Assembly (NCBI RefSeq): GCF_000015565.1
Contig: NC_008786.1
Location: forward strand, 3,410,001 to 3,474,000
Source: Verminephrobacter eiseniae EF01-2
Lineage (GTDB): Bacteria; Pseudomonadota; Gammaproteobacteria; Burkholderiales; Burkholderiaceae_C
Length of the DNA: 64,000 nucleotides
Direction of reading: 5' to 3'
Part shown: positions 41,377-51,999 of the stretch, piece after piece
How positions within the stretch are numbered: the first letter of the stretch is position 1
Layout: each line of letters opens with the position of its first letter
Made by a program: the position numbers and the translations under genes
Notes under the pieces: model-generated
What the model saw: the letters and a program-made list of their open reading frames with translations, nothing else
Database searches by the model: none
Told to the model about the DNA's origin: nothing

Positions 41377-41640
41377 GTGACGACGCTTTCTGATATTGCC
41401 GAGATGCTCAAGGGGGCCCGCCGCGACGCGCGGCTGAGCCAGGACGAACTCGCACAGCGAGCAGGTGTTTCGCGCACGACCGTGGCGCGCATGGAGAACC
41501 TCTCCAAGGGCGACATGAGCGTGTCGGCGCTGGTGCGTCTGCTCGAAGCCTCCGGCTACGACCTGAAGCTGGTCAAGCCTGGGCACGTGCGCACGGTCGA
41601 GGACATCCTGGCCGAGCAGCGCCAAGGTGACTTGCCGTGA
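41377..41640 (+). CDS. hipB: HipB-type Xre antitoxin
   Basis: An 87-residue DNA-binding protein starting at GTG. The helix-turn-helix is RRDARLSQDELAQRAGVSRT followed by TVARMENLSKGDMSVSALVR, of the Xre/Cro type. Its stop overlaps the GTG start of hipA (GTGA), so the two are translationally coupled. HipB normally neutralises HipA and represses the operon. Confidence 0.88.
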   Translation: MTTLSDIAEMLKGARRDARLSQDELAQRAGVSRTTVARMENLSKGDMSVSALVRLLEASGYDLKLVKPGHVRTVEDILAEQRQGDLP

Positions 41641-42986
41641 GGCTCGACGTCCAGGTCAGCGGAAGGACCGTTGCCCAACTCTATCGTGAGCGCGACGAGT
41701 ATGTGCTGAAGTACCTGCGTGACACCGACGTGGCCGATTTCGTCAGCCTGACCATGCCGGTGCGTGACGAGGCTTGGCGCTGGCCGCGTGATCTGCATCC
41801 GTTCTTTCGCCAGAACCTGCCTGAGGGCTACCTGCTGAACATCATCCGCGAGGAGTTCGGGCCCCTGCTCGACGGCACAGACCTGTCTCTGTTGGCGGTG
41901 GTGGGCGGCACGGGCATCGGCCGCGTCACGGTCACGCCCGAAGGCGGCAAGCCCGGCCTGGAGATGGCGCCCCTGCAGATCGACAGCCTGCTGAAGGCGG
42001 ACAACACCACTGAGCATTTCGCGTCGCTGGTGCGCCGCTATGCCCGGGCGTCGATCTCGGGCATGGTGCCCAAGTTCATTGCGCCCGAAGAGGCGTCCGA
42101 CGAGGCCCTGGGACCGCTGGGCAAGCCCACGTTGCGAACCAGCCGTCACATCATCAAGGGTTCGGATGACAGCACGCCCTACCTGGGCTTCAACGAGTTT
42201 CACAGCATGCGCGTGTTGGAACGCCTGAACGTGGTGCCGGTGGCTCGCACCCGCATGTCCGACGATGGCCGGGTGCTGTTGGTCGAACGCTTCGACGTGG
42301 ACGAGCAAGGCGCACCCACGCATGGGCTTGAGGATGCCTGTGGTCTGCTGGGTCTGCCCCCTCATGAGAAATACGCCACCACCACCGAGAAGGTACTCAA
42401 CGCCACGCGCGCCTACCTGCCGCCGGCACAGGTGCGCGTCCAACTGGAGCGGTTCGGGTGGCACGTGCTGACCAACTACGTGGTGCGCAACGCCGACTGC
42501 CATGCCAAGAACATCGCGCTGTACTACACCGGGCTCGGCGACGTGGGCTTCACGCCGGTCTATGACATCGTGACCACGCAGGCCTACCCACGCTACGCGA
42601 ACAACCCGCCGGGGCTGTCGATCGATGGCCGACAGACCTGGGCCGCCGGCAAGGCGCTGCAGCGTTTTTTCAGTGCGTGGCTTGGCATTTCGCCGCGGCA
42701 TTGCGCCGACATGGTCGAGCGCCTGTGCGAATCGGCGGTGGAGGTCGGCAAGGAAGTGATCGAGGCGGCCAAGAACGAGCCATGCTGGCGCCCGGTCGCC
42801 AAGCAGATGGTGCATGCCTGGAATGAAGGCATGGCGTCGTTGCGTGACCCGAAGGCGAACGTGGCCGTGCGGGGCCTGGATGCTGCGATTGCCGCTGCCG
42901 GTTTCTCCGACCCCGAGCCTGCGGAGCAGACCTGCGTGACGATCGGCCGATCCGAACTGCTGGCCCCGCCCCGGCGCAAACGCTAG
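41637..42986 (+). CDS. hipA: HipA-family serine/threonine kinase toxin
   Basis: A 449-residue HipA kinase. Segments in order: the N-terminal subdomain with FRQNLPEGYLLNIIREEF, SGMVPKFI (activation-loop-like region), HIIKGSD with the ATP-contacting Lys, NEFHSMRVLERL, LLVERFDVDEQG, the catalytic NADCHAKNIALYY (Asp and Asn) and VYDIVTTQ (metal-binding Asp). E. coli HipA phosphorylates GltX and causes growth arrest and persistence. All catalytic residues are intact. Its stop codon lies right at the edge of an IS5-family fragment. Confidence 0.92.
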   Translation: MRLDVQVSGRTVAQLYRERDEYVLKYLRDTDVADFVSLTMPVRDEAWRWPRDLHPFFRQNLPEGYLLNIIREEFGPLLDGTDLSLLAVVGGTGIGRVTVTPEGGKPGLEMAPLQIDSLLKADNTTEHFASLVRRYARASISGMVPKFIAPEEASDEALGPLGKPTLRTSRHIIKGSDDSTPYLGFNEFHSMRVLERLNVVPVARTRMSDDGRVLLVERFDVDEQGAPTHGLEDACGLLGLPPHEKYATTTEKVLNATRAYLPPAQVRVQLERFGWHVLTNYVVRNADCHAKNIALYYTGLGDVGFTPVYDIVTTQAYPRYANNPPGLSIDGRQTWAAGKALQRFFSAWLGISPRHCADMVERLCESAVEVGKEVIEAAKNEPCWRPVAKQMVHAWNEGMASLRDPKANVAVRGLDAAIAAAGFSDPEPAEQTCVTIGRSELLAPPRRKR

Positions 42987-43277
42987 GGCGTGTTAACAAT
43001 CAAGTAATCCAAATATAAGTACAAACCAGACTGAGAAACGACAGGTAGTTACGCGCCAGCTTTTCATAACGAGTTGCGATTCTTCGGAATTGCTTGATCC
43101 GATTAAAAAAACGCTCGACCAAATTGCGCTCCTTATACAGATGTCGATCATAACTTCGCTGCACCACACGATTGCGCCTGGGTGGAATGACCGCCGTCGC
43201 ACCAGCGACCTGAATGCTGTCAATCAGGGCATCGGCATCGTAGCCCTTGTCAGCCAGTACCGCATCGGCTTTCAAGC
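42987..43277 (-). mobile_element. IS5-family element, 3' fragment
   Basis: A partial IS5-family (IS427-type) element begins GGGCGTGTTAACA immediately after the hipA stop codon. On the minus strand it encodes the C-terminal transposase part: LADKGYDADALIDSIQVAGA and the Tyr/Glu region RNLVERFFNRIKQFRRIATR. The element is cut at 43277 by the IS4-family copy and resumes at 44684. Confidence 0.85.
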
Positions 43278-44674
43278 CATCCGATTGCACACATCTTGAA
43301 GATTCGGCGGTAAGCTGTTGATTTTTCGAAGAGAAGATGGAACGGATGAGCTGGGCACAAGAGGAGTTCGCGGACCTGGACCTGGGCGACAAGCGCCTGA
43401 ACCGGCGGCAGGTGAAACTGGCCGAGACCTTCAGCCGGCAGCCCACACCCAGCATCCCGGCTGCCTGCGGGGGCTGGGGCGACACCCGCGGTGCCTACCG
43501 CTTCTTTGCGCACGAGGACATTGACTGGCAGGACATCCTCAAGCCGCACTGGCAGGCCAGCGCCCAGCGCATGGCCGAGCACCCGGTGGTGCTGTGCCTG
43601 CAGGACACGACGGAGCTGGACTTCAACGGCCAGGGCATTGCCGGGCTGGGCCGGCTGAGCTACGACGCGCAGCGCGGGATGTACCTGCATCCGACCTACG
43701 CGATCACGCCCGATCGCGAACCGCTGGGCGTGATCGATGCGTGGATGTGGGCGCGTTCGGCCAAGAAGGGGCAGGCTGCGAGCGATGAGGTGCTGGAGAG
43801 CACGCGCTGGATCGAAGGCTACGAGCGCATCGCCGAGCAGGCGGCCAGCCTGCCTGGAACCCGGCTGGTCTATGTGGCCGACCGCGAAAGCGACCTGCTG
43901 GCGCTGATGCGCCGCGCTGCCGAATTGGGCCATCCGGCCGACTGGCTGGTGCGCGCCAAGCACAACCGGGTTCTGCCCGAAGACGGCAAGCTGTGGGCCA
44001 CAGTGACAAGCGGCCACCCTCTGGGCCAGATCGTCTTCACCCACGCGCCGCGCGGCCAGCGCGCCCGGCGGGTGCACCAGACGGTGTGGGCCAAGTCGGT
44101 GCGGCTGGCCCAGGGCGTCACCGTGACCTGTGTGATCGCTCGCGAAGAACACCCGCCGAGCGGCGTCAAACCCATCGAATGGCGCTTGCTGAGCAACCGC
44201 CCAGCCGGCGACTTGCAGGCAGCCACGCAGTTGATCGAGTGGTACCGCGCCCGCTGGGAGATCGAACTGTTCTTTCACGTCGTCAAGAACGGCTGCCGGA
44301 TCGAGGCACTGCAATTGAGCCGCATCGAGCGGCTCGAGCGCGCCATCGCCCTGTACCTGGTGATAGCCTGGCGCCTCGCGCGCTTGATGCGCCTGGGGCG
44401 CAATGGCCCGGATCTACCCGCCGAACTGTTCTTCGAGCCCGACGAATGGCGCGGCGTGCACTTCCTGCTCAAAAAGCCCATCCCCAAGCAGGCGCCGCGC
44501 CTGAACACCGTCATCCGGATGGTTGCCACGCTGGGCGGCTTTCTGGGGCGCAAGTGCGATGGCGAGCCCGGCGTGAAGACGTTATGGATCGGCATGCAGC
44601 GCGTGGCCGACTTCGCTGCCGGACTGGACTACGCCAGGGAAATCCAGGCGCTGTGAGATGTGTGCAATCGGATG
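43278..44674 (+). mobile_element. IS4-family (IS50/Tn5-like) insertion sequence, copy A
   Basis: A complete 1397-bp element with perfect 18-bp terminal inverted repeats CATCCGATTGCACACATC. It is flanked by a 9-bp direct repeat CTTTCAAGC (43269-43277 and 44675-44683), the target duplication expected for IS50-type IS4 elements. It sits inside the IS5-family transposase gene. Copy B (44964-47381) is almost identical. Confidence 0.95.
43337..44656 (+). CDS. IS4-family transposase (Tn5 type), copy A
   Basis: A 439-residue transposase. The N-terminal DNA-binding domain reads LGDKRLNRRQVKLAETFSRQ and TRGAYRFFAHEDID. The RNase H-like core has QDTTELDF (first Asp), VADRESDLLALM (second Asp) and the Y-R-E-K signature YRARWEIELFFHVVK (Glu). 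The C-terminal part resembles the Tn5 dimerisation region. All catalytic residues are present, so it should be active. Confidence 0.95.
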   Translation: MERMSWAQEEFADLDLGDKRLNRRQVKLAETFSRQPTPSIPAACGGWGDTRGAYRFFAHEDIDWQDILKPHWQASAQRMAEHPVVLCLQDTTELDFNGQGIAGLGRLSYDAQRGMYLHPTYAITPDREPLGVIDAWMWARSAKKGQAASDEVLESTRWIEGYERIAEQAASLPGTRLVYVADRESDLLALMRRAAELGHPADWLVRAKHNRVLPEDGKLWATVTSGHPLGQIVFTHAPRGQRARRVHQTVWAKSVRLAQGVTVTCVIAREEHPPSGVKPIEWRLLSNRPAGDLQAATQLIEWYRARWEIELFFHVVKNGCRIEALQLSRIERLERAIALYLVIAWRLARLMRLGRNGPDLPAELFFEPDEWRGVHFLLKKPIPKQAPRLNTVIRMVATLGGFLGRKCDGEPGVKTLWIGMQRVADFAAGLDYAREIQAL

Positions 44675-44683
44675 CTTTCAAGC

Positions 44684-44963
44684 CTTCCAACAGCGACTTG
44701 GCTTGTGTAATATCGGCTACCTCGCCACCCGTGAGCAGCCAACGCACTGGGCTACCGAGCGCATCGACAACGACGTGAATCTTGCTCGTCCATCCACCAC
44801 GCGAACGGCCTATTGCCTGTGGCCCCTCTTTTTTTTGGCACCAGCAGCGTGTTGATGTGCACGCACCACCGTAGTATCGATCATCAGCATTTTCAAATCT
44901 CTGTCGCCACTGACAATTTCGCAGACCCGCTGCCATACGCCCGACTCGCCCCAGCGCTTGAAC
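44684..44963 (-). mobile_element. IS5-family element, middle fragment
   Basis: Continuation of the interrupted IS5-family transposase on the minus strand: LKMLMIDTTVVRAHQHAAGA (first catalytic Asp), then KKRGHRQ in one frame and GPQAIGRSRGGWTSKIHVVV with GGEVADITQAKSLLEGLKA in the next, the usual two-frame layout of this IS group. It is truncated on its other side at 44963 by IS4-family copy B; the first 65 or so codons of the transposase are missing. Confidence 0.85.
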
Positions 44964-45022
44964 CATCCGATTGCACACATCTTGAAGATTCGGCGGTAAG
45001 CTGTTGATTTTTCGAAGAGAAG

Positions 45023-46270
45023 ATGGAACGGATGAGCTGGGCACAAGAGGAGTTCGCGGACCTGGACCTGGGCGACAAGCGCCTGAACCGGCGGCAGGTG
45101 AAACTGGCCGAGACCTTCAGCCGGCAGCCCACACCCAGCATCCCGGCTGCCTGCGGGGGCTGGGGCGACACCCGCGGTGCCTACCGCTTCTTTGCGCACG
45201 AGGACATTGACTGGCAGGACATCCTCAAGCCGCACTGGCAGGCCAGCGCCCAGCGCATGGCCGAGCACCCGGTGGTGCTGTGCCTGCAGGACACGACGGA
45301 GCTGGACTTCAACGGCCAGGGCATTGCCGGGCTGGGCCGGCTGAGCTACGACGCGCAGCGCGGGATGTACCTGCATCCGACCTACGCGATCACGCCCGAT
45401 CGCGAACCGCTGGGCGTGATCGATGCGTGGATGTGGGCGCGTTCGGCCAAGAAGGGGCAGGCTGCGAGCGATGAGGTGCTGGAGAGCACGCGCTGGATCG
45501 AAGGCTACGAGCGCATCGCCGAGCAGGCGGCCAGCCTGCCTGGAACCCGGCTGGTCTATGTGGCCGACCGCGAAAGCGACCTGCTGGCGCTGATGCGCCG
45601 CGCTGCCGAATTGGGCCATCCGGCCGACTGGCTGGTGCGCGCCAAGCACAACCGGGTTCTGCCCGAAGACGGCAAGCTGTGGGCCACAGTGACAAGCGGC
45701 CACCCTCTGGGCCAGATCGTCTTCACCCACGCGCCGCGCGGCCAGCGCGCCCGGCGGGTGCACCAGACGGTGTGGGCCAAGTCGGTGCGGCTGGCCCAGG
45801 GCGTCACCGTGACCTGTGTGATCGCTCGCGAAGAACACCCGCCGAGCGGCGTCAAACCCATCGAATGGCGCTTGCTGAGCAACCGCCCAGCCGGCGACTT
45901 GCAGGCAGCCACGCAGTTGATCGAGTGGTACCGCGCCCGCTGGGAGATCGAACTGTTCTTTCACGTCGTCAAGAACGGCTGCCGGATCGAGGCACTGCAA
46001 TTGAGCCGCATCGAGCGGCTCGAGCGCGCCATCGCCCTGTACCTGGTGATAGCCTGGCGCATCGCGCGCTTGATGCGCCTGGGGCGCAATGGCCCGGATC
46101 TACCCGCCGAACTGTTCTTCGAGCCCGACGAATGGCGCGGCGTGCACTTCCTGCTCAAAAAGCCCATCCCCAAGCAGGCGCCGCGCCTGAACACCGTCAT
46201 CCGGATGGTTGCCACGCTGGGCGGCTTTCTGGGGCGCAAGTGCGATGGCGAGCCCGGCGTGAAGACGTTA
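45023..46270 (+). pseudogene. IS4-family transposase, copy B, interrupted
   Basis: Identical to copy A through residue 416 apart from a Leu-to-Ile change (WRIARLMR instead of WRLARLMR). The frame is then broken by the IS630-family insert at codon GTTA. The missing 23 C-terminal codons (starting WIGMQRVADF) are found intact at 47292-47361 beyond the insert. A read-through product ends shortly inside the insert, so the catalytic core is retained but the dimerisation tail is lost. Confidence 0.9.
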
Positions 46271-46339
46271 GAGCATATTTGACTTAAAACCAAACAATTC
46301 ATGATATGATGCGGCGTCTTTTTTCTGAAGGAGTATGCA

Positions 46340-46705
46340 ATGCAAGCGTATTCGCAGGATTTGCGAGATAGGGTGCTGAAGGCGATAGAACAAGGAGATC
46401 GTCCTACCGATATTGCCAAGCGTTTTGAAGTCAGTCGAGTATGGGTGTACCAAGTCAAGACGCGTCTTGAAGAAGGTATTCGACATAGTTTCCAGATTGG
46501 CGGGCATCGGAAATCTTGCCTTGCTCCAGTGGAGCCTATGTTGCGGGAATGGATTAAAGACAGAGCGGATTTGACACTGCGCGAGATGTGCGAACGGCTG
46601 GCCGAGCATGGGATAACGATCAAAGCCCCAGCCCTATGGCACCAACTGAATAAATGGGGTTTGAGCTTTAAAAAAAACTCTGCACGCCAGCGAGCAAGAG
46701 CGTAA
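46340..46705 (+). CDS. IS630-family transposase, OrfA (N-terminal part)
   Basis: A 121-residue product with the helix-turn-helix DNA-binding domain: [20 protein letters not shown] and [19 protein letters not shown]. The last residues after KKN are out of frame with the continuing transposase. The frame change falls at an A8 run (46670-46677). Dropping one A, or a +1 shift, joins it to OrfB through [13 protein letters not shown]. Confidence 0.9.
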
Positions 46706-46709
46706 GGAT

Positions 46710-47276
46710 GTGCAAGCGGATCGGGTTGCATGGAAGGAAAGCCAGCCAGCACTTGACGCAACAAAGCTTGTGTTCCTTGATGAGACGGGCACATCCACCA
46801 ACATGACCCGCACACGAGGCCGTTCGCCGAAGGGACAGCGTTGCATAGCCAGTGTTCCACATGGTCACCGGAAAATCACCACCTTCATTGCCGGCTTGCG
46901 GGTAAACGCCGTGACCGCCCCAATGGTCTTGGATGGCCCTATGGATGGCGAAGCATTCCTGGCCTATATACAGCAATTTCTGTGTCCTACGCTGCACCCT
47001 GGTGATATCGTGATCGCTGATAATTTGTCCAGCCATAAAGTCTCTGGTGTGCGTGAGGCCATTGAGGGGGTTGGTGCAACATTGCGTTATCTTCCGCCTT
47101 ACTCACCAGATTTGAACCCTATCGAAAAATTCTTTTCCAAACTGAAAGCCCTGCTCAGGCAAGCTGAACAGCGTACTGTCGATGGACTTTGGAATACCAT
47201 CGGGCACCTGCTTGATTGTTTTACACCACAGGAATTGTCCAACTACTTTTCATCTTCTGGATATGTTTCTACTTAA
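46710..47276 (+). CDS. IS630-family transposase, OrfB (DDE catalytic part)
   Basis: A 188-residue product carrying the DDE core: [15 protein letters not shown] (first Asp), [15 protein letters not shown] (second Asp) and [20 protein letters not shown] (Glu), the standard IS630 spacing. It lacks the DNA-binding domain, which is in OrfA one frame away. The translated homology starts before the first ATG, supporting synthesis as a frameshift fusion. Confidence 0.9.
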
Positions 47277-47381
47277 ATCAAAAATGCTCTATGGATCGGC
47301 ATGCAGCGCGTGGCCGACTTCGCTGCCGGACTGGACTACGCCAGGGAAATCCAGGCGCTGTGAGATGTGTGCAATCGGATG

Positions 47382-47572
47382 GGTTTAGCCCCATCATCCA
47401 ACCGCTCCAGGATTACACCCGTGAGCGTTTCTGCAGTCTCCGAAATCTTCACGACAGATCGAGGCTTTTGAGAGCGATCGTCGACGGTCTTCCAATTGCC
47501 GACTGGGGTCATTTGCGCATGCATAGGCATCGCCAGCGTCAAAGTGATTGCAGCGACCAAAATCTTGTTCAT
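47382..47572 (-). pseudogene. DUF2147 protein, truncated by IS4-family copy B
   Basis: On the minus strand a frame starts MNKILVAAITLTLAMPMHAQ, a clear signal peptide, and continues TPVGNWKTVDDRSQKPRSVV KISE-like sequence, the DUF2147 N-terminus. Homology stops at 47382 where the IS right end begins; the remaining two thirds of the gene are not on the other side of the IS. DUF2147 proteins are exported beta-rich proteins of unknown role. Confidence 0.75.
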
Positions 47573-47817: not shown

Positions 47818-48642
47818 GTGTCAGATTCAAGGACTTCGTCGCTGCTGCGACAGGCATTAGTGCCGCCCAATGCCGTTACCCTGACATCACTAGCGATTGC
47901 ACTTGTGGCGATGTGGAAGCTGCCCTCGGCGGTGTGGCCGACCTGGTCCGTCATTGGTTGCATTGTGCTTGATGTTATGGATGGGCGGATCGCCCGCATG
48001 TCCAATCGCCCGAATGCGCTCGGCGCCCAGCTAGACAGTCTGGTCGACGTAGTGGCCTTTGGTGCGCTCCCTGCGCTACTGGTGCTGCACCACGCTGCTT
48101 CGACTGCATGGATGCTGCATGTCCCGACAGCAATACTTTTCATCGCTTGCGCAGCACTTCGACTTGCACGCTTCAACGCCAAGACCACTCAGGCACCTCA
48201 ACGGTTTTTCACCGGCTTGCCCACTCCTGTAGCGGCCGGGCTTGTGGCCTCGGTGATCCTGGTGCTTCAGCGCAGCGACCAGGCTGGGCATGCGTCTGGG
48301 CCGTTGTCCGGTGGGGTCATCTGCCTGATAGCGGGCTTAGCGGCATGGCTAATGGTGACGAAGCTGCCGTTCCCAAGCTTTAAGACGAACGGTGGTGGTG
48401 CCGCTTCAACGACGCCGAAGCGACGAACGCTGATCGCCATCGTGGCGCTGATGTTCATCGGATTGTTCTTCCATCCCTCACTGACCCTCCTATTGACGTT
48501 TGCCGTCTATGCCGCCAGCGGCTGGGTGATACGGCGGAAGATGAACCAATTCATGGACCGGCTGGCCTATGCAAAGGCGGCGGCTTCCGGTACCGGGCGC
48601 ATCGGGTGCCCGGCCGCCACCGAACACCTGGACCGCCCATGA
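47818..48642 (+). CDS. CDP-alcohol phosphatidyltransferase (PssA-like)
   Basis: A 274-residue membrane protein starting at GTG with CCGGAG upstream. It has the complete CDP-alcohol phosphotransferase motif D-x2-D-G-x2-A-R-x8-G-x3-D-x3-D, seen as DVMDGRIAR then GAQLDSLVD, and about eight hydrophobic segments. The region after the motif (VVAFGALPALLVLHH) resembles phosphatidylserine synthase II. It transfers a phospho-alcohol between a CDP-activated partner and an acceptor. Its stop overlaps the ATG of the next gene, and the neighbours are a nucleotidyltransferase and a kinase-like protein, suggesting a dedicated lipid head-group pathway rather than housekeeping PssA. Confidence 0.88.
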   Translation: MSDSRTSSLLRQALVPPNAVTLTSLAIALVAMWKLPSAVWPTWSVIGCIVLDVMDGRIARMSNRPNALGAQLDSLVDVVAFGALPALLVLHHAASTAWMLHVPTAILFIACAALRLARFNAKTTQAPQRFFTGLPTPVAAGLVASVILVLQRSDQAGHASGPLSGGVICLIAGLAAWLMVTKLPFPSFKTNGGGAASTTPKRRTLIAIVALMFIGLFFHPSLTLLLTFAVYAASGWVIRRKMNQFMDRLAYAKAAASGTGRIGCPAATEHLDRP

Positions 48643-49321
48643 ACGAGCAAGCACTCGGCGCGGGCCCCGTCGTCTATTGCTCGGTGCCGGTAAGGGCACA
48701 CGCTTCAATGCCGCGGGGACGAAGTTACTCGCACCGTTGCGGGGCCGTCCGCTTCTGGCCCATGTCGTCACCCACGTACGGGTCACTGGCCTGCCGATGC
48801 GGCTGGTACTCGACAGCACCGCGCCGCAGCCGCTGGTCGATCTGGCAGACCAGCTCACGCGCGAAGGCGAGATTGTCCAGAATCCCCTCGCCGCCAGAGG
48901 CATCGGCACTTCCATCGCTGCGGGCATGCATGCAACGAAGCAAGCCACGGGCTGGCTGGTGCTGCCAGCGGATATGCCCAACATCGGCTCGGACGTGATC
49001 ACCCTTGTGGCGCAGGCCCTGGAAGACCCTCGCATCATGTCGGCCAGGCCGGTCTACCGTGGAACACCTGGGTACCCGTTGGGTTTCAGCCGGCGGTGCA
49101 ACATTGACTGGAACACCTCCCTGATTGCCATGGGTCTAACACTGCTGAAAGCCAAGGCAGCCGGACGAGCACTTTTCGTCGAGACGCCTGGTGTGGTGCA
49201 AGACGTCGACCAGCCGTCGGACCTGGCCGCTCTCGAAGGGCCCGACGACACCACGCGCAATTCGTACCCCGAGGAGTCAACATGGCACACAGGCTCTCCC
49301 TCGTTGCCTGGCGCGCGCTGA
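48639..49321 (+). pseudogene. MobA-like nucleotidyltransferase, apparently frameshifted near its start
   Basis: The expected start ATG at 48639 overlaps the previous stop (ATGA) and reads MNEQALGAGPVV, but the nucleotide-binding loop LLLGAGKGTRFNAAGTKLLA continues in a different frame from about 48675 on. One missing base near 48672-48680 explains this. The remainder is a normal MobA/GlmU-type fold: GRPLLAHVVTHV, GWLVLPADMPNIGSDVITLV (metal Asp) and QDVDQPSDLAAL. It could be translated from an internal start in the upstream gene (48569), or the base may be a sequencing error; otherwise it is broken. Substrate unknown; CTP or GTP transferases of this type make NDP-alcohols or cofactors. Confidence 0.7.
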
Positions 49322-50178
49322 AGCCTCATGCAGCCACCGCGGCGCGCTTGCTCGGTGCAGCCTTGATCGCTATGGCCGGCGGGCTGATCCTGCTGCCCGA
49401 ATCAGCCGTCTTGCGCGCGACTTGGGTCGTGCTCTGTGGCGCCGTGGCGCTATACGGGGCCCACGTGCTGTTCGCGCTGGCAGGCATCCTTTTTGGTTTG
49501 CCGCCCGAGCTCCGGCGCAAACTCCAGCATCTGCTGGCCGGTGGTGCCATCACGGCTATCGGCTGGAGCATCGGCTCGAGCCTGGCCGTCACGATGATGT
49601 GCAGCGCGATGGTGGCGTGGCTCGTCTTCAGCAAGAGGCTGAAAGACGCACAGACTCTGAGGCATCTCACGATGAGCCGCCGCGACAGCCGGCAGACCCA
49701 CGGCGAGATGCTGCTGCCGCTGGGCCTATTGCTGTCGCTGTGGGTCGCGGGTGGCACGACACCGGCCTGGTTCTTCGGCGCGCTGACCCTCACGCTCGCT
49801 GATGCGGCGGCGGCGTTGGTCGGCGTGCACATGGGGCGCATGCAGTATGGCGTGCACAGGGGGGCCGGGCAGAAGTCGGTCGAAGGCAACCTCGCCTTCT
49901 TCGCCGTGACGCTCATCCTCGGCTGGATAATCCTGCCCGATGCCGGCCTGGAAGCGCCCGCCACTGCGGTTCTGGCCTTGATGTCGGGAGCCGTGGTGCT
50001 CACGGTGCTGGAGTCGCTGTGCACCCATGGCCTCGACAATCTCCTGCTGCCGATGGCCGCGGTGCTGCTGGTCCAGCTGCCAGGGCTGCTGTCGTCGCAG
50101 GCCTTGCTCGGTGTCGCGATCGCCTCCCTGGCGCTGCTGGTGTGGATCGCCAAGCGTTCAAGCCGCCTGACACTATGA
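49282..50178 (+). CDS. Phytol/dolichol kinase-like membrane protein
   Basis: A 298-residue protein with about eight membrane segments. ELRRKLQHLLAGG and ALTLTLADAAAALVGVHMGR followed by KSVEGNLAFFAVTLILG are the signature of the CTP-dependent polyprenol/phytol kinase (SEC59/VTE5) and CdsA-related family. Such enzymes phosphorylate a lipid alcohol with CTP. Its start lies 40 bp inside the end of the nucleotidyltransferase gene, and its stop overlaps the next start by 4 bp, so the operon is tightly coupled. Confidence 0.8.
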   Translation: MAHRLSLVAWRALKPHAATAARLLGAALIAMAGGLILLPESAVLRATWVVLCGAVALYGAHVLFALAGILFGLPPELRRKLQHLLAGGAITAIGWSIGSSLAVTMMCSAMVAWLVFSKRLKDAQTLRHLTMSRRDSRQTHGEMLLPLGLLLSLWVAGGTTPAWFFGALTLTLADAAAALVGVHMGRMQYGVHRGAGQKSVEGNLAFFAVTLILGWIILPDAGLEAPATAVLALMSGAVVLTVLESLCTHGLDNLLLPMAAVLLVQLPGLLSSQALLGVAIASLALLVWIAKRSSRLTL

Positions 50179-50948
50179 CGACATCACTGTGCCGCACAAC
50201 CTCCAATTCCATCATCAAATGGGCATTGCTCGGCGCGGCCAGCTATGCGCTAGCTGCGCTGCTTCACGAAGGTGTCGGACATGGGTTAGGCTGCTTGCTG
50301 GCAGGCGGCGACATCGAGCTGGTGACGTCGAGCTACCTTTCTTGCTCGCGGCGCGGTGCGCTGATCGATGTTGCCGGGCCAGTAGCCAATGCCATCGCCT
50401 TCGTCGCTTTCGCCGCCCTGGCATCGTGGGCCAAGTCTTATCGCAGGCCGGTGTCCCGCTTCGCGTCGGGGTTTTGCTGGCTTGAGGCCGCGTGGAACCT
50501 CTACTGGTTCACTGGCTACCTCCTTTACTCAGGCCTCACCGATCACGGAGACTGGAGTCTCATCGCGCAGAGCCTACCGATGGGCCCGTACCTCCTCATG
50601 GCCGCAGGGCTGCTTGCCACGATCCAGGGTATCCGATGGTTCCGCCGCAGCAATCCCTTCGGGCAGGCGAATACGCTGTTCGCCGCCTATGCCGGCGGCA
50701 GTGCCGCGGCCCTCTTTGCGGCGGCGTTCGACCCCGCAGGGTTCGTCGGCCTGTTACTCAGGGCCCCTCCAGCTGCGCCCCTGGCAGGGATCTGCCTGCT
50801 GCTCTCGGTGGACCGACACCATCGGTCGCCGATTGAGGATGGCGTGTCACGCCACGAAGCCGGCTTTCGCGACGTGGTGTGGCTCGGAGGGCTCGTCATC
50901 GGCACGCTGTTTTTCATCGGAGTCCTGGGACCTGGCTGGAGACCTTGA
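50175..50948 (+). CDS. Integral membrane protein with HExxH motif (M50-like)
   Basis: A 257-residue protein with six or seven hydrophobic segments. ALAALLHEGVGHGLGCLLAG in the first third contains HEGVGH (HExxH), and IDVAGPVANAIAFVAF lies about 45 residues on, an arrangement seen in M50 site-2 proteases, although the second Asp motif is not evident. It starts within the stop of the kinase-like gene. It could be an intramembrane protease or a membrane enzyme using the same metal site. It ends the four-gene unit, 10 bp from a convergent gene. Confidence 0.65.
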   Translation: MTTSLCRTTSNSIIKWALLGAASYALAALLHEGVGHGLGCLLAGGDIELVTSSYLSCSRRGALIDVAGPVANAIAFVAFAALASWAKSYRRPVSRFASGFCWLEAAWNLYWFTGYLLYSGLTDHGDWSLIAQSLPMGPYLLMAAGLLATIQGIRWFRRSNPFGQANTLFAAYAGGSAAALFAAAFDPAGFVGLLLRAPPAAPLAGICLLLSVDRHHRSPIEDGVSRHEAGFRDVVWLGGLVIGTLFFIGVLGPGWRP

Positions 50949-50957
50949 GGTGCGATT

Positions 50958-51540
50958 TCATGCGGCCCGCAACTCGGTGGCAGACCAGGCCCACGCCACC
51001 GAATTGATCATTACCACCGACTGGCCCTGATGCAGCAACCCCTGCCCGCTCATGGCTTCGAGCGTCAGCAGTGGATCGGCCGCCCCAGCATGTCCGAACG
51101 CGGACCTCGCATCGCGGCGCAGCCGCGCGGGATCGATGCCCAGCTCGTCCGCCATCAAGGCAAACGCCTTCGGGCGAAAGCTCTCCACGACGACGTGGTC
51201 GGCCTCGTGGAGGGCGAAGCCGGCCCGTTCACGAAATTGCTCGCCGAGACGCCGGAGGCAGCGCCGGGTTTCCTGCACGTACAGCACCGGGTGCTGCTCG
51301 ACGGCGAACGCCACCGCGGCAAGCCGGTGGCTGGACAGCGACACGACGGTGCCGACTTCGAGGCCTCGCGCCGATGACGCGTCCACCAGAAAAGCCACCG
51401 CCAGATCACTGAGAACGGAGCTTCCGTTGCGCATCAGTCGAGGCACATGCGGCGGGTGGCGGTCGAACAGAGAGAGAAAAACGGCGGAAAGCGCGCCTGG
51501 AACGGCGACTTCCGGAGGGGCGTGCTCAAGAGGCCGAGGC
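50958..51540 (-). pseudogene. Truncated 3-oxoacyl-ACP synthase III (FabH)-like gene
   Basis: On the minus strand the frame contains GSSVLSDLAVAFLVDASSAR, LHEADHVVVESFRPKAFALM, RSAFGHAGAADPLLTLEAMS and VVMINSVAWAWSATEL, which follow the C-terminal half of KAS III enzymes. The N-terminal half with the active-site Cys is absent; the frame runs into the tmRNA terminator instead. The catalytic Asn/His positions are also altered. It is probably a remnant left when foreign DNA inserted beside ssrA was partly deleted. Assignment is by pattern only. Confidence 0.5.
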
Positions 51541-51612: not shown

Positions 51613-51999
51613 TGGTGGAGCTGGCGGGAATTGAACCCGCGTCCGTAAGCCTTTACCGGGCAGATCTACATGTTTAGCGGTCTGATTTGAGTCTCGCCAC
51701 CATTGTCGCGCAGTCGCACGCTACACTGGCCGCCAGCACCCTATTTTCTTGCCCTGACCCAAGGTACCCGGATCAGGACCAGCCCATGTCATTATCCTTG
51801 CAGCCGGGAGGCGCTGATTGCTCAGAACCCCCTTGCCCAGCCCATCGGCCGACTGTTGCAAGGCTCGCTGGCAATTAAGCAGCGAGTGCGAAACGTTCGT
51901 CGTTTGCAGTTAGTTTTTCGAATCGAGATTTACGAGCGTGACCCAAGCTCGACATGCACCACGCCGGTTCCGAACCCACGTCGAAACCAGGGCAGCCCC
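51613..51999 (-). ncRNA. ssrA: Transfer-messenger RNA (tmRNA)
   Basis: A 387-nt tmRNA that rescues stalled ribosomes. The 5' GGGGCTG pairs with CAGCTCC before the 3' ACCA, forming the tRNA-like acceptor; the T-arm GGTTCAATTCC lies near the 3' end. The reading frame in the middle encodes the tag ANDERFALAA followed by TAA (minus strand, about 51876-51908). The 3' end is a common island integration site; the truncated KAS III gene right beyond the terminator fits that. Confidence 0.97.

Follow-up and report, generated by a model that had tools for sequence, protein, structure and literature searches.

A four-gene set between an insertion-sequence cluster and ssrA

The stretch of Verminephrobacter eiseniae EF01-2 DNA considered here (the window: 64,000 nucleotides of contig NC_008786.1, positions 3,410,001 to 3,474,000) carries, at 47818-50948, four long and overlapping + strand frames in its list of open reading frames (ORFs), lying between a cluster of insertion sequences (ISs) and the tmRNA gene ssrA. 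Four such frames on one strand, two of them with matches to curated domains, are not a product of chance. We discuss below the possibility that this gene set contributes to the synthesis of a phosphatidylserine (PS)-like lipid. Its components are:

47818..48642, + strand: gene 1, a CDP-alcohol phosphatidyltransferase similar to PS synthases (PSSs); 274 aa, GTG start (PF01066, TIGR00473, alignment with 7b1k/7pow, tree)
48569..49321, + strand: gene 2 frame, a MocA/MobA-like nucleotidyltransferase, start uncertain (PF12804, TIGR03310, frame analysis)
49282..50178, + strand: gene 3, a phytol/polyprenol-kinase-like membrane protein; 298 aa, ATG start (homologues)
50175..50948, + strand: gene 4, a member of a membrane-protein family without a name, with an HExxGH motif; 257 aa, ATG start (alignment, predicted fold)

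Genes 1, 3 and 4 are uninterrupted frames; genes 3 and 4 share an ATGA overlap, and 40 bases are common to the gene 2 frame and gene 3. The original prediction, made from the sequence without database searches, had envisaged four overlapping genes. All four frames and these two overlaps stand, and what does not is a clean overlap of gene 2 with gene 1, as the ATG at 48639 lies in another frame. It is from the overlap alone that we infer a joint pathway of the four genes. No paper describing the gene set was found by term searches of open-access full text, in keeping with the earlier remark that it is not a recognised pathway, and none of the four proteins matched a defence library at E <= 0.01.

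Putative lipid-linked enzymes: genes 1 and 3

Gene 1 was recovered by the PF01066 profile (E 1.8e-14; 54.9 bits against a cut-off of 22), and its alignment displays the complete DxxDGxxAR...GxxxDxxxD signature, which is described as the motif of CDP-alcohol phosphatidyltransferases in the structural account of the Methanocaldococcus jannaschii PSS (MjPSS) (PMC8633023); its first assignment to this superfamily, with a perfect motif, is thus upheld. The top NCBIfam model is TIGR00473 (pssA) at 95.5 bits, a score that falls under the curated equivalog cut-off of 107 and so leaves gene 1 outside that family as curated. The alignment of gene 1 with MjPSS (PDB entries 7b1k and 7pow) has E values under 1e-12. 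In the sections of the structural account that bear on the active site, the catalytic serine is held by D62, S63, D66 and F105, the metal and CDP-diacylglycerol (CDP-DAG) are liganded by D41/D44/D62/D66, R101/R104 are conserved arginines, and the authors expect that the hydrophobic tails are not discriminated (PMC8633023). With these positions placed by hand on gene 1 from the printed alignment, every substrate-binding or catalytic residue checked is present, the serine site included. Across 120 rows, comprising gene 1 and 119 listed homologues (P0041-P0159) of the 5533 found, the checked residues are common to all except at R49 and R104 (119/120 each). Gene 1 further shares the RLARFN and GLPxP segments with PssA and MjPSS. 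These likenesses argue fairly strongly that the substrates of gene 1 would be a CDP-lipid and serine, and its product PS or a PS-like lipid.

Gene 1 nevertheless differs from the PssA proteins in forming a clade apart. In a tree of 62 rows (every second of the 120, together with P0041 and the PssA-like protein of this genome), gene 1 and the metagenome proteins P0041 and P0042 split from the other 59 PSS rows with a support of 100/100; for P0042, which sits on a long branch, the tool warned that the grouping may be false. A PssA-like gene of the genome itself lies elsewhere, at C2:1953977, and the gene 1 protein is 35.8% identical to its product over 204 residues.

The earlier description of gene 3 as phytol/dolichol-kinase-like is carried by its homologues, which include proteins named 'phytol kinase' or 'diacylglycerol/polyprenol kinase family protein', and not by a family model, since no Pfam or NCBIfam model matched at its cut-off. 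The predicted fold bears a weak, CdsA-like resemblance to CDP-DAG synthetase (4q2g) over residues 85-270. Gene 3 is akin to both this synthetase and the phytol/diacylglycerol/polyprenol kinase-like family in its LTLADAAAALVG, KSxEG and GxDN segments. It differs from that family in that its top-scoring relative is distant (35% identity over 74%) and the relatives fetched sit in other neighbourhoods. Yeast Dgk1, of the same superfamily, phosphorylates diacylglycerol with CTP. We would therefore count diacylglycerol among the possible substrates of gene 3, and the overall likeness points, with moderate confidence, to the phosphorylation of a lipid alcohol with CTP. The membrane-lipid theme first proposed for the locus finds support in genes 1 and 3.

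Gene 4 and its HExxxH membrane family

The site-2 proteases of the M50 family are distinguished by an HExxH zinc motif and a zinc-coordinating LDG on another transmembrane segment (PMC10202637). Gene 4 had been taken for an HExxH membrane protein, an assignment ruled out by a motif count: its HEGVGH is an HExxxH, with three residues between E and H, and this spacing recurs in 14/14 aligned sequences of the family as against 0/14 for HExxH. Neither the gene as started at 50175, in the ATGA shared with gene 3, nor the longer ORF from 50019 has an HExxH. The invariants of the family are HExxGH, GxxxN and Asp126; LDG is absent from 14/14 sequences, and in its place they carry an invariant Asp within GDW or SDF. 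The family thus departs from site-2 proteases such as mjS2P (3b4r) and SpoIVFB (8vjl) in both hallmarks.

Structure prediction, proposed earlier as a check, yielded a weak site-2-protease-like resemblance for this fourth protein; Foldseek alone returned no site-2 protease among its top 50 rows, and Pfam M50 did not match gene 4 itself, with one weak match (E 0.23) among the 14 members. There is a faint suggestion that gene 4 is a membrane protein that binds metal. The family is found mostly in Acidobacteriota records. One distant relative, at locus L033 of genome G1002 (67-858, - strand), is divergent from an integron integrase (951-1970, + strand; NF011946, 459 bits) and sits where the first integron cassette would be.

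Genomic setting and distribution

The placement between an IS cluster and ssrA, in accessory DNA, is as originally described, with a KAS III-like fragment in between. The flanking features are:

44956..47389: second Tn5/IS4-type IS copy, bordering the gene set on its left and split by an IS630-type element
50958..51500, - strand: KAS III-like C-terminal fragment, convergent with gene 4, upper end approximate (PF08541, NF005308)
51613..51999, - strand: ssrA (tmRNA), whose 3' end is the apparent island site in the genus

The gene set begins about 430 bases past the IS end at 47389 and comes within about 10 bases of the stop of the KAS III-like fragment. The match of this fragment to its family is confined to the C-terminal part, ahead of the ssrA terminator (PF08541, 29.2 bits, cut-off 26.6; NF005308, 27.1 bits, cut-off 315), and the open frame of the fragment extends to 51608, through that terminator. 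KAS III relatives in genome G466 lie, judged by eye, in a peptide-synthetase-like cluster where tblastn found no match to genes 1-4. On the other side, two Tn5/IS4-type copies with identical ends span 43271-47389, the second being the one split by the IS630-type element. A DUF2147-like piece (47336-47572, - strand; E 0.076, under the cut-off), divergent from gene 1, runs into the IS end, and a HipA-like protein with both HipA domains (41637-42986, + strand) lies between tRNA-Pro (37533) and the IS cluster.

ssrA is known as an island site in other bacteria (PMC11915505). At ssrA in eight sister genomes, DNA similarity (E <= 1e-8) ends at the 3' end of the gene in six and at the terminator in two. 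Among 30 genomes of the genus, this one included (27 of which matched), a second copy of the ssrA end, of 33 or 26 bases, is present in G001 and G010 (G001:C23:5326-5358 and G010:C1:2357528-2357553), lying 69 kb and about 23 kb away from the gene. Such repeats are what islands at ssrA would leave, and they point to islands there in these sister species. As no second copy of the ssrA end was found in the present genome, we regard insertion of the gene set at ssrA as likely only.

The genes are sparsely distributed in the overlapping samples surveyed. The gene 4 profile detects, with this genome counted each time, one of 47 genomes of the genus (0/46 others), 3/399 of the family and 2/399 of the order; of the family matches, one is at E 1.2e-23 and one at 9.6e-4, the latter probably by chance. 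Gene 3 is present in 1/60 relatives, 4/399 genomes of the order and 7/369 of the class. On plasmids, genes 3 and 4 and the KAS III piece went unmatched, and the matches to gene 1 (76 records) and gene 2 (71 records) all fell short of 60% identity; viral contigs held no relative of P0037, P0041 or gene 2.

A candidate PS-like lipid pathway and its alternatives

Taking these strands together, we propose, with a probability of about 0.38, that the locus is a horizontally acquired and partly decayed set by the island site at ssrA that would make a PS-like lipid from a CDP-lipid and serine, along with a CTP-dependent lipid kinase. By homology and conserved residues, gene 1 would catalyse the committed step, in which a CDP-lipid and serine yield PS or a PS-like lipid and CMP. 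Gene 3 would convert a lipid alcohol, for example diacylglycerol or polyprenol, with CTP to its phosphate, thereby feeding the CDP-lipid precursor pool. Gene 4, with a non-canonical HExxxH site on a scaffold like that of site-2 proteases, might perhaps have a regulatory or accessory role rather than a lipid-making one. Gene 2, a MocA-like nucleotidyltransferase, is probably not translated in frame from the coupled start here.

Several observations weigh against this proposal, the first being this very state of gene 2. The MobA-like assignment itself is borne out by PF12804 (E 3.6e-23, 83 bits, residues 36-178 of the 250-aa ORF) and by an LLLGAGKGTRF loop. The best NCBIfam match, to TIGR03310 (MocA), is far under its cut-off (68.8 bits vs 186.45), which sets gene 2 outside the MocA family proper. 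The ATG of the ATGA at the gene 1 stop (48639) is in frame 0, which closes at 48998. The similarity to nucleotidyltransferases starts near 48674 and runs in frame 2, not in that of the coupled ATG. In the homology frame the sole upstream ATG is at 48569, 74 bases inside gene 1, and there is a TTG at 48677; the 215-aa stretch from 48674 served as the query for relatives. Gene 2 is hence probably without an in-frame coupled start and probably frameshifted near its N-terminus in this genome. A codon-use scan for the frame change was weak, with a slight preference for frame 0 immediately ahead of 48674, and the change could possibly be a sequencing error.

Second, the exceptions at the checked residues of gene 1 are its two closest relatives among the matches listed, P0042 with H at R49 and P0041 with Q at R104, which weakens a simple PSS label for this clade. 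Third, no other genome examined showed the four genes linked, whether in the genus, family, order or class samples or at 22 loci where gene 3, gene 4 or the KAS III piece has a distant relative. At these loci tblastn (E <= 0.01) showed a second member in 0/22, a search of limited reach in that it recovered the known relative itself in 19/22 (not at L027, L068 and L069) and in that several loci are cut by contig ends. Moreover, the gene 4 relative P0038 is on a contig of 10,685 bases, a length not shared by the longest contig of any relative listed for gene 3 or, among the best 120, for gene 1; a position at a contig edge could explain this mismatch. The evidence leans against a conserved four-gene neighbourhood. 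No second genome with the whole set was found, and this rare set is at most suggestive of a pathway.

The same observations bear on a different account, namely that we are looking at the remnant of a decaying island, with orphan genes acquired one by one beside the insertion site and no working pathway now. The frame disagreement in gene 2, the reduction of the KAS III-like neighbour to the C-terminal part of its family, the upstream DUF2147-like piece running into the IS, the empty result at the 22 loci and the unmatched P0038 contig would all fit such decay. However, genes 1, 3 and 4 are uninterrupted and overlapping, gene 1 retains every checked catalytic residue, the G+C of the set (0.642) equals that of the window flanks (0.642 and 0.64), and P0038 could sit at a contig edge. 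We hold this account to be a genuine possibility, about as likely as the first proposal though short of probable.

The original prediction favoured another chemistry, the activation of a small alcohol as a CDP derivative and its attachment to a lipid. Spelled out, gene 2 would turn a small phosphorylated alcohol into its CDP (or other NDP) derivative, which gene 1 would transfer to a lipid alcohol, much as happens in Lic/Pnt-type tailoring or in the synthesis of inositol-phosphate lipids. In the relevant part of one report, PF12804 enzymes such as LicC and PntC couple head groups to CMP and so activate them (PMC6697681), and gene 1 has weak NCBIfam matches to archaetidylinositol-phosphate and phosphatidylinositol-phosphate synthases (42.9 and 40.3 bits). 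However, gene 1 scores far higher as a PSS and has the PSS serine site, so that its donor should be a CDP-lipid and its acceptor serine, with no need for a CDP-head group. Further, the genome has no phosphoenolpyruvate mutase above the cut-off (two TIGR02320 matches at 137 and 127.6 bits vs 319.55), which closes the known route to a phosphonate head group; the score of gene 2 against MocA and its probable frameshift are also unfavourable. We accordingly regard this alternative as improbable, with no search aimed at a choline or other head-group kinase, and set aside the role first given to gene 2. A long shot, in our estimate, is a three-step route on a non-diacylglycerol lipid alcohol, whereby gene 3 would make R-phosphate, gene 2 CDP-R and gene 1 R-phosphoserine, with gene 4 as a membrane partner of a novel HExxxH type.

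Implications

Were that three-step route true, it would be a lipid-side version of the Kennedy pathway, yielding a phosphoserine lipid not yet described. On the preferred proposal of a PS-like lipid pathway, a working set would mean that a second, diverged PS-synthase-like enzyme and a CTP-dependent lipid-kinase-like protein were gained in one transferable block, and membrane head-group chemistry could thus move between species. Gene 4, for its part, marks a small membrane family without a name, which couples a weakly site-2-protease-like predicted fold to an altered motif spacing.
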